Assembly (NCBI GenBank): GCA_011051715.1
Contig: DRKP01000187.1
Span: 1 to 33,635 of the forward strand
DNA from: Sedimenticola thiotaurini
GTDB taxonomy: Bacteria; Pseudomonadota; Gammaproteobacteria; Chromatiales; Chromatiaceae
Direction: 5' to 3'
Length of the DNA: 33,635 bases
Positions 20,732 to 24,150 of the stretch are shown piece after piece. Position 1 is the stretch's first letter. Each line of letters opens with the position of its first letter. The translations under genes and the position numbers were made by a program. The notes beneath the pieces are model-generated. The model was not told the origin of the DNA. It saw nothing but the letters and a program-made list of their open reading frames with translations, and did no database searches.

Positions 20732-22126
<1,395 letters not shown>

Positions 22127-22190
22127 GAACTACAGGGCCGAGGAACTACAGGACCGAGGAACTACAGGGCCGAGGAACTACAGGGCCGAG
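22127..22190 (+). repeat. Four tandem copies of a 16-bp unit
   Basis: The unit GAACTACAGGGCCGAG occurs at 22127-22142, 22143-22158 (one change, GGGCC to GGACC), 22159-22174 and 22175-22190. The array begins immediately after the ffh TAG and ends three bases before a second, unrelated tandem repeat. Both are in the gap before rpsP. Confidence 0.95.
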
Positions 22191-22193
22191 GGA

Positions 22194-22242
22194 CCCCTCA
22201 CCCCTCACCCCTCACTCCTCACTCCTCACTCCTCACTCCTCA
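22194..22242 (+). repeat. Seven tandem heptamers, CCCCTCA x3 then CTCCTCA x4
   Basis: Seven exact heptamers of the form CYCCTCA run without interruption: three CCCCTCA followed by four CTCCTCA. The plus strand is almost purely pyrimidine over 50 bases. Heptamer arrays of this type are known as short tandemly repeated repetitive sequences in some bacteria, mainly cyanobacteria; I do not know whether this one belongs to a described family. It sits just upstream of the probable rpsP promoter. Confidence 0.95.
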
Positions 22243-22279
22243 CCCTCCCATCCCCCCTTCCAATTTTCCCGGAATTGCG

Positions 22280-22654: not shown

Positions 22655-23167
22655 ATGGGGGACGATCGGGAGCAACGCTGGGTCGTGCTGGGGCGTGTCT
22701 CCGGCCTGTTCGGCGTTCGCGGCTGGGTCAAGGTGTTCTCCGATACGGCGCCACGGGAAAACATCCTCGATTACCGGAGCTGGTATCTGAAGCGGCGGGG
22801 CGAGTGGCGTCCCTACCGCTTGCTGGAGGGGCGGCGCCAGGGCAAGGGCATCGTCGCCCGGCTCGAGGGCTGCGGCGACCGGGAGCAGGCGGCGGAACTG
22901 GTCGGCGCCGATATCGCCGTCAGGCGGGAACAGCTGCCGGCGGCCGCCGACGGTGAGTACTACTGGACCGACCTGCAGGGACTGCGGGTGGTCAATCTCG
23001 GGGGGATCGATTTCGGCCGGGTGGACCACCTGTTCGAGACCGGCGCCAACGACGTGATGGTGGTGAAGGGCGAGCGCCGCCGTCTGATCCCCTTCATCGA
23101 TGGGGTGATCGACGGGGTGGACCTGGAGGAGGGGGTGATCCGGGTCGACTGGGACCAGGACTTCTAG
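22655..23167 (+). CDS. rimM: Ribosome maturation factor RimM
   Basis: RimM, 170 residues, helps the 30S head mature by binding S19. The N-terminal RimM domain has V-V-L-G-R-V-S-G-L-F-G-V-R-G-W-V-K-V and the C-terminal PRC-barrel domain has Y-Y-W-T-D-L-Q-G-L-x-V, then D-V-M-V-V-K-G-E, L-I-P-F-I and a final V-D-W-D-Q-D-F. The length is typical, so the protein seems complete. The last base of its TAG stop (23167) is also the first base of a 162-bp fold-back element that separates it from trmD. Confidence 0.95.
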   Translation: MGDDREQRWVVLGRVSGLFGVRGWVKVFSDTAPRENILDYRSWYLKRRGEWRPYRLLEGRRQGKGIVARLEGCGDREQAAELVGADIAVRREQLPAAADGEYYWTDLQGLRVVNLGGIDFGRVDHLFETGANDVMVVKGERRRLIPFIDGVIDGVDLEEGVIRVDWDQDF

Positions 23168-23328
23168 GAGCCTGTCGGACTTGATCGTTCGAAGCGCAAA
23201 TCACCGGGGGCGGATCAAATCGGTTTATCGAATGAGGCGAACAGCAGGGCTGTTTAACGAGTTCGATACGCTGAGTTGATCGCCATCCAGGGACTTGCAG
23301 CCAGACAGCATCAAGTCCGACAGGCTCC
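23167..23328. repeat. 162-bp fold-back (MITE-like) element
   Basis: The ends are a perfect 19-bp inverted repeat: GGAGCCTGTCGGACTTGAT at 23167-23185 and its complement at 23310-23328. Further pairs lie at matching distances inside: GATCAA 23213-23218 with TTGATC 23276-23281, TATCGAA 23226-23232 with TTCGATA 23262-23268, and a central hairpin AACAGC/GCTGTT at 23240-23254. All share one centre near 23247. There is no reading frame for a transposase. The clean ends and nested symmetry suggest a non-autonomous mobile element, but no target duplication is obvious at the borders. Confidence 0.8.
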
Positions 23329-23330
23329 CC

Positions 23331-23400
23331 GGGAACCTCCGGAGATTGGTCTGGACGCTTCGGCTGCCAGGTGCGGGTTCATGATTGTTCAGAGGTTCCC
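23331..23400. repeat. 70-bp palindrome-bounded sequence before trmD
   Basis: GGGAACCTC at 23331-23339 is repeated in inverse as GAGGTTCCC at 23392-23400, 52 bases apart and two bases beyond the fold-back element. The right arm, with the A before it, includes AGAGG, the best candidate for the trmD ribosome-binding site, 11 bases before its ATG. It may be a second small repeat or an RNA hairpin that can hide the start of trmD. Confidence 0.6.
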
Positions 23401-23406
23401 CAGGCC

Positions 23407-24150
23407 ATGCGCTTCGACGTGGTGACCCTGTTCCCGGAGATGTTCCGGGCCATGACCGGCAGTGGCGTCACCGGCCGCGCCTTCGATCGTGGGCGGGCGC
23501 AGCTGGTGTTGTGGAACCCGCGGGACTACACCCACGACGTGCACCGCACGGTGGACGACCGCCCCTACGGGGGTGGGCCGGGCATGGTGATGAAGATCGA
23601 GCCCCTGCTGGCGGCGATCCAGGCAGCCAGGGCGGCGGCCCCCACTTCCCGGGTGGCCTACCTCAGCCCCCAGGGGCGGCGCCTGGATCAGGCGGCGGCG
23701 GGGGAGATGGCGCAGCGCGACGGCATGATCCTGGTCGCCGGCCGCTACGAGGGCATCGACGAGCGTATCGTCGGGCGCTGCGTGGATGAAGAGTGGTCCA
23801 TTGGCGACTACGTGCTGAGCGGCGGTGAGCTGCCGGCCCTGGTGCTGATGGATGCGGTGATCCGGCTGTTGCCGGAGGTGCTGGGCGACGCGGAGTCGGC
23901 GCAGCAGGACTCCTACATGGATGGCCTGCTCGACTGCCCCCACTATACCCGGCCCGAGGTTTTCGACGGCGAGGCGGTGCCCGCCGTGCTGCTCAGCGGC
24001 GACCACGCGGCGATCCGCCGCTGGCGCCTGCAGCAGTCCCTGGGGCGAACCTGGCTGCGACGGCCGGATCTGCTCGAGGGGCGCCGGCTGAGCGACGAGG
24101 AGCAGGAATTGTTGAACGAGTTTATTCAGGCGCACACAGGCGCCGGTTGA
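23407..24150 (+). CDS. trmD: tRNA (guanine-37-N1)-methyltransferase
   Basis: TrmD, 247 residues, methylates G37 next to the anticodon and so prevents frameshifting. It starts [13 protein letters not shown]; the 12 in-frame codons before 23407 lie in repeat DNA and are excluded. The deep-knot SAM site is seen as [12 protein letters not shown] and [14 protein letters not shown], with Y-T-R-P-E later. It belongs with rimM before and rplS 19 bases after, but the gap to rimM has been filled by two repeat sequences. Confidence 0.96.

Follow-up and report, generated by a model that had tools for sequence, protein, structure and literature searches.

Bacterial MITEs are usually regarded as the leftovers of insertion sequences (ISs). 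MITEs that target CTAG or YTAA are already known, and so are mobile repeats with folded transcripts. The accessible part of PMC3189936 describes MITEPsy1 of Pseudomonas syringae, whose transposition has been shown and which resembles the element presented here in being short and non-autonomous, with IS-like ends and a 4-nt duplication of CTAG or YTAA. The ERIC/IRU and Correia/NEMIS repeats are likewise mobile, ~100–200 bp long, and form long transcript hairpins that affect neighboring mRNA; the available text of PMC2229807 and PMC10969869 reports orientation-dependent effects for ERIC and processing of ERIC/Correia-type repeats by RNase III or RNase E. The transposase of the autonomous partner described below belongs to the IS1182 family, which includes IS1272 (excerpted from PMC5678879) and ISPse1, a 1653-bp IS with a 4-bp duplication (excerpted from PMC3281130).

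The element lies in a 33,635-nt stretch of Sedimenticola thiotaurini DNA (hereafter, the window) in the gene order ffh, rpsP, rimM, element, trmD, rplS. The identities of RimM, TrmD, S16, L19, and Ffh were confirmed, and the sense strand of the element is also the sense strand of the operon. A first-pass annotation of the window had reported a 162-bp fold-back element with perfect 19-bp ends, beginning on the last base of the rimM stop codon and with no transposase nearby. The perfect ends were recovered (23167–23185 and 23310–23328, with 124 nt between them), and no transposase was present among the five named neighborhood genes. A fold-back element is indeed present, but its true size is 160 bp; borders set by copies elsewhere place the element proper at 23168–23327 (GAGCC...GGCTC) on the + strand, and the outermost base on each side is target. 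The rimM TAG does end on base 23167, as had been claimed, but this G belongs to the left target CTAG (23164–23167, including the TAG at 23165–23167) and not to the element, while C23328 is the right-hand target base. The predicted self-folding was borne out, with a 196-nt sequence folding at −99.5 kcal/mol vs. −62.9 ± 4.3 kcal/mol for 200 shuffles (z −8.5), none of which equaled it. Short tandem repeats, GAACTACAGGGCCGAG-like and then CCCCTCACTC-like, were seen by eye between ffh and rpsP (22126–22245).

The left terminal inverted repeat (GAGCCTGTCGGACTTG, 23168–23183, + strand) is an IS1182-type end, common to a 1563-bp IS1182 in a relative and to other CTAG-flanked IS1182 loci. The right one (23312–23327, − strand) is its inverted counterpart and matches the same 1563-bp IS. 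Inside the ends, the two strands of a subterminal internal loop, GAAGCG at 23191–23196 (+; GTAGCGA in other subtypes) and GCAGCC at 23297–23302 (+; GCAGTAG in other subtypes), fall in near-invariant columns of alignments A2 and A3. The conserved apical core, GAGGCG-hairpin-TAACGA, occupies 23234–23260 (+), and the window copy carries a compensated stem change in it, AACAG/CTGTT. Model R1 matched the whole element with 133 bits on the + strand. To its right, CCCG (23328–23331) stands where other copies have CTAG.

A second short repeat of 68 bp (23332–23399, + strand, ends GGAACCTC/GAGGTTCC) follows, and then CCAG (23400–23403), 3 nt before the trmD ATG (23407). The CCCG is probably a degraded CTAG duplication common to the element and the second repeat, and the CCAG is a probable degraded CTAG as well. 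When both insertions were removed by eye, the rimM end TTCTAG was followed by GCC and then by the trmD ATG, a 3-nt gap as in relatives; two insertions have probably widened this gap to 239 nt. The normally tight rimM–trmD spacing that the annotation had assumed was found in relatives: RimM was matched in 50 of them, 29 loci were examined, trmD was reached in 26, and all 26 lacked the element, with gaps of −1 to 149 nt (≤34 nt in 21 of the 26) vs. 239 nt here. No intrinsic terminator (GC stem plus T run) was found at 22900–23600 and no promoter at the rimM–trmD element site. An AGAGG at the right end of the second repeat could be a candidate ribosome-binding site for trmD.

Mobility of the element is well supported. 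The same genome holds 11 full copies (157–160 bp) and five short or partial ones (~66 bp). Identical 4-bp flanks were present on both sides of five of the 11 full copies, namely CTAG (L002, L006, and L008), TTAA (L007), and TTGA (L011), and the flanks of the remaining full copies have diverged on one or both sides. Across the GTDB family, 41 of 210 genomes contained a match; among the 43 of 60 family rows in which both ends were resolved (the other 17 were left out), lengths were 157–161 bp, with CTAG on both sides in 15 rows and TTAA on both sides in two. Thus, the features that define a MITE (short length, multiple copies, terminal inverted repeats, and target duplication) are all present, as 160 bp, 16 copies, and 4-bp CTAG/TTAA. 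The multiple copies, the intact IS with the same ends in a relative, and the empty sites of the relatives agree with the mobile repeat that the first-pass annotation had proposed; the element is neither unique to this site nor fixed there in all relatives.

Several members of the family depart from the full-length form. The core-less ~66-bp copies (L012–L016, one of them partial) seemingly have the same inner junction; since L012 and L016 have a substitution in common, the short form may have moved on its own. If these copies moved as such, the core is unnecessary for transposition, which suggests that transposition itself may proceed without the hairpin. In L280, L309, and L359, pairs of elements abut at a common CTAG, as in the insertion of one beside another. 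Longer members of ~230–300 bp (L129, L131, L136, L137, and L256) have inserted side hairpins in which a CCCCGAAGGGGTG motif recurs, in either orientation and in different genomes; this may be another small repeat lying within the element. Unusual ends (GAGTCTGGGCC, GGCATGTCCC, CAATTTGTTTTACG with TTAA, and GGAAGCTGTCTGG) were observed on the core-bearing hairpins L206, L218, L227, L289, and L406, which are possibly served by other transposases.

Nine of the 16 own copies abut the stop codon of a predicted gene, and the six full copies at stop codons are all in the sense of the gene. Outside the elements, CTAG was found only 13 times in 76,463 bp of own-genome loci, vs. ~234 expected from base composition. 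With genes called by codon-position GC, these background sites comprised five stop codons, six intergenic positions, and two positions in genes; none of eight TTAA sites was a stop. An excess preference for stop codons did not reach significance when the copies were compared with CTAG sites alone (p = 0.46) or with both motifs (p = 0.09). How the elements land on stop codons is largely explained by the CTAG target, which is rare in this GC-rich genome and is often a stop codon, with a modest extra preference possible. The gene survives such an insertion, as its stop codon is re-formed by the duplication.

The intact IS sharing the ends was found in a relative (G113) and not in the own genome. 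G113 contained ten pairs of the same ends 1563 bp apart. Four of these IS copies were read, three with CTAG on both sides and one with ATAG/CTAG, and the encoded protein of 450 aa matched NF033551, a transposase of the IS1182 family (363.5 bits vs. a cutoff of 270). At several other IS1182 loci of the family, the CTAG-flanked ends were of the CAGCCTGTCGGACTT and GAGGCTGTCCGAGAATAG types, and both types are also present on hairpin elements. The 1563-bp IS1182 of the relative is an autonomous IS with the same ends and target, as is expected for a MITE. A search for a close transposase in the own (fragmented) genome gave two matches, of which the one listed was 31% identical, and the ends of the element were absent from the 3 kb around it (a region that stops at a contig end); the own-genome source of transposase is lost, unassembled, or external. 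An interior derived from the IS, which is often but not always required of a MITE, was not found. The hairpin core was absent from 10 IS1182 loci with up to five substitutions allowed, and model R1 had no match in the IS1182 loci submitted to it. Since the core was not found in the IS1182 loci tested, the interior looks unlike an IS remnant.

The second repeat has its own relatives. Its other copy in the genome is 78% identical with CTAG on one side, and eight further matches were found in the family, seven of them complete at 158–159 bp and one without a left end found. Identical 4-bp flanks (CTAG, CTAA, TTAA, TCAA, or CCAG) surround six of the seven complete elements. A CTAG-flanked IS of 1196 bp on a viral contig has the ends of the second repeat (a GGAACCTCTGAAC end) and encodes an IS5 transposase (NF033581, 349 bits vs. 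a cutoff of 140). The second repeat thus has the ends and target of an IS5-family IS, as would a MITE mobilized by IS5, although its flanks in the window are only CCCG/CCAG, and it is probably an internally deleted IS5-ended hairpin element. The seven full-length IS5-ended elements fold over their whole length, with the sense strand favored in all seven. Their apical hairpin is longer and is flanked by (G/A)AGGCG and CAAC motifs, with the motif start near position 56, not 67. R1, which was built almost only on IS1182-ended elements, matched one of the seven IS5-ended loci (E = 1.8e-10) and gave nothing at E up to 1 in the other six. Kinship of the IS1182- and IS5-ended hairpins is supported but not proven by this one match, the motifs, and the length. 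As the IS5 and IS1182 transposases cross-match below cutoff, the two are distant relatives and not independent families. The core was absent from three other short IS5-ended elements (L482, L487, and L488). The viral contig L496 contains a 161-bp IS5-ended hairpin between two TTAA sites, matched on both of its strands, together with another, unpaired end. One IS5-ended element that was searched for had no plasmid match, and its apical pattern was not found in viral contigs.

The length of the hairpin is nearly fixed and its internal loops are conserved while the arms differ strongly. Changes on both sides affected 23 of 56 pairs among the 43 closer elements; in 57 diverse elements this rose to 56 of 65 pairs, with 93.4% of cells paired in a structure predicted from the same 57 rows. 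Cells with both-side changes in these rows numbered 849, vs. 254 ± 16 when shuffled and at most 322 with slid partners, where the rows are far from independent (at 70% identity, they chain into seven clusters, one of 38). The loop motifs that were kept are GNAGCGA opposite GCAG and GAGGCG opposite TAACGA. Rfam gave no match at gathering score in the window, and further Rfam searches, one of them covering 10 loci, gave only sub-threshold SNORA52 and mir-3914.

The fold is also strand-specific. With RNA energies, the sense strand (GAGGCG...TAACGA) was the more stable one in every element of two sets (43 of 43 and 41 of 41), with mean differences of −13 and −18 kcal/mol; both sets had been chosen by similarity or core and not by folding, and the 84 tests cover 83 distinct elements. 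Disallowing G-U pairs reduced the margin to ~4 kcal/mol but left sense ahead in 43 of 43 and 40 of 41. A third set, biased in that it was chosen with a sense-strand covariance model, gave 42 of 42 with a mean of −18 kcal/mol after four of 46 model matches were left out as antisense duplicates. Together the three sets contain 125 distinct elements, many of them related (one of them appears in two sets, as L109 and L288). All seven clusters of the 57 diverse rows were sense-favored. Isolated G-U and A-C pairs, scored equally, occurred at 107:24 and 105:19. Arm slippage and simple palindrome upkeep would both treat the strands alike. DNA parameters favored sense as well (42 of 43 and 41 of 41, ~6 kcal/mol), so the energies do not separate RNA from single-stranded DNA as the folded form; RNA is favored because G-U pairs are so well tolerated.

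Recent single changes in the own genome numbered nine to G-U and eight to A-C, which differs from the long-term ratio (p = 0.005). A second genome gave six to one, and both genomes together p = 0.02, with the ratios counted by different methods. This recent-change ratio hints weakly that landed copies drift and that selection acts only on the spreading lineage. Orientation relative to neighboring genes was balanced, at 38 sense and 33 antisense in a set of 124 and 21 and 20 in the 64 loci of <55% GC, as judged from simple ORF calls that are unreliable at high GC. Replication strands, assigned by hand in two genomes, were eight leading and 14 lagging (p = 0.29). With no clear orientation or replication bias and little constraint in landed copies, the element is unlikely to serve the host at each of its sites.

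When the whole class was searched, many matches covered only element positions 67–93; the elements that contain them are similarly long but have other arms and, in some cases, other ends. The core pattern GAGGCGAATAGNNNNNCTATTTAACGA was found in at least 116 stretches of named genomes; among the matches listed, the carriers were Sedimenticola, Thiohalomonas, Hydrogenovibrio, Pseudomonas, Marinobacterium, Methylomonas, and Nitrosomonas, as well as Mariprofundaceae, Ghiorsea, Desulfobulbaceae and Desulfurivibrio MAGs, and others. The named carriers include Hydrogenovibrio halophilus DSM 15072, Nitrosomonas halophila Nm1, and Sedimenticola hydrogenitrophicus SB48. Isolated core matches in MAGs from remote phyla may result from faulty binning. 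Ends were located by a script that fails on cut contigs; 40 of 81 core matches measured 157–163 bp, with CTAG at 37 left and 36 right flanks and at both in 32, and 40 of the 81 were left out of the fold tests for length, contig ends, or unclear ends. At E = 1e-4, R1 matched 51 of 398 genomes of the phylum, namely the own genome with six further members of its class and 44 genomes from other classes. Of these 44, 42 belong to one family, which is probably in the Zetaproteobacteria given the names Mariprofundaceae and Ghiorsea among the core matches. The element of a relative has one copy on a Pseudomonas sp. MPC6 plasmid typed as conjugative, a plausible vehicle, and was not found in phages or E. 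coli. The window element had no plasmid match, and the core pattern matched two viral contigs, apparently with one element.

We consider it likely that the element is a miniature non-autonomous transposon, mobilized in trans by IS1182, whose interior is a selected structured hairpin module. An ordinary MITE would instead be a deletion derivative of IS1182, with the fold a by-product of inverted repeats and of template-switch correction between the arms. Its IS1182 ends, CTAG duplication, many copies, and core-less short copies all suit such a MITE, and the accessible part of the review PMC10969869 describes stable stem-loops in MITE transcripts. This reading is strained by the strand asymmetry: correction of a palindrome is strand-neutral, yet sense wins in 84 of 84 tests (83 distinct, chosen without a folding model). 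It also has to face the near-fixed length with conserved internal loops and very different arms, together with the core and R1 results in IS1182 loci (core absent from 10 at ≤5 substitutions, no R1 match), and we regard it as improbable. A folded form consisting of single-stranded DNA, arising in replication, conjugation, or transformation and recognized somewhat like integron attC sites, would accord with a strand-specific fold, with conserved unpaired loops, and with DNA parameters that favor sense too. The leading/lagging bias of 8 to 14 in two genomes was, however, not significant, and the matching transposases are of the IS1182 and IS5 families, DDE enzymes that, to our knowledge, need no single-strand substrate; the attC-like form is, on balance, unlikely.

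The other two explanations have far less in their favor. A sense orientation among essential operon genes and a strong fold could suggest a fixed regulatory RNA or attenuator of the rimM–trmD operon, but the site is empty in 26 of 26 relatives measured, there are 15 other copies in the own genome, and no terminator was found. This makes it very improbable, and we rejected a fixed operon regulatory RNA on the empty sites in those 26 relatives, with a local effect possible. GTAG is associated with REP, and GTAG tetranucleotides occur in many members of what is an extragenic palindrome in multiple copies, as in REP/REPINs or other repeats that a tyrosine transposase mobilizes. Such an origin is contradicted by the 4-bp target duplication and the ends common to IS1182/IS5 elements, as well as by the length near 160 and the lack of GTAG at that place in the subtype of the window, and we give it hardly any credence.

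In the reading that we prefer, an IS1182 transposase would recognize GAG-N-CTGTCGGACTT ends and insert at CTAG, or sometimes TTAA, with a 4-bp duplication; we infer this mobilization in trans from the common ends and targets. The insertion here would have used the CTAG of the rimM stop codon, leaving rimM intact, and a second short element with IS5-type ends would have used the same CTAG. The interior appears to be a defined module, unlike a plain IS deletion derivative, in which one strand would form a ~160-nt hairpin with conserved internal loops. This hairpin would be kept by pairwise compensation despite arms that diverge between lineages, and the same kind seems to occur with both IS1182 and IS5 ends. 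The most likely interpretation is a structured RNA that is mobile, with selection on its fold during the spread of the lineage and decay after insertion; the folded form would be RNA, not single-stranded DNA, and selection would be for spread rather than for host benefit. Reading in the sense of rpsP-rimM-trmD-rplS, the element would contribute a strong hairpin to the operon mRNA between rimM and trmD, which should separate their translation, reduce any coupling, and offer a site for double-strand RNases. By analogy with the ERIC and Correia repeats (parts of PMC2229807 and PMC10969869), the element may affect mRNA stability at this site, and trmD could be affected.

A wider form of this interpretation, to which we give somewhat less than an even chance, is a transposase-agnostic mobile structured RNA, i.e., a ~160-nt scaffold that has acquired ends from two or more IS families and is now distributed across Gammaproteobacteria, Zetaproteobacteria, and other groups, with the RNA fold selected during spread. 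If so, the RNA may serve the element (in protection, spread, or transposase control) and not the adjacent host gene. Structural selection on one strand of the interior is strong, its length is near-fixed while the sequence turns over, and counterparts occur on two IS families; whether MITE hairpins act for themselves becomes a directly testable question. The family also adds a structured-RNA candidate that is absent from Rfam and seemingly common in one family outside the class.

The first-pass annotation could not name the family, and no name emerged from Rfam at threshold or from descriptions in the open-access literature. The open text available from PMC5678879, PMC3189936, PMC5453526, PMC3281130, PMC7285500, PMC10969869, and PMC2229807 contained no description of it, a term search of PMC2267715 was empty, and one of four core-sequence strings occurs in 18 open-access papers; in the paper with two matches to the first string both are primers, and no family description was apparent in the others. 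Palindromic repeats of Thiomargarita have their consensus sequences in supplements to the paper excerpted here (PMC4853749), and a description of the family there is possible.

Compared with the known systems, the element has an autonomous partner of the same transposase family as IS1272, but IS1272 replaces a stem-loop target without duplication (according to the accessible part of PMC5678879), whereas the present clade duplicates CTAG. MITEPsy1 has ends that resemble those of the second repeat; it differs in being 100 nt long with IS5-type ends (marked 'IS5?'), and the available text of PMC3189936 presents it without a conserved structural core or strand-specific fold. ERIC and Correia repeats have TA termini in the table of PMC2229807 and are listed there for Neisseria and enterobacteria; the ends found here are instead GAG...CTC with a 4-bp CTAG/TTAA duplication. 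Relative to ERIC and Correia as described in those excerpts, the present element is distinguished by its CTAG/TTAA target, its IS1182 or IS5 ends, and arms that diverge while structure and length stay.
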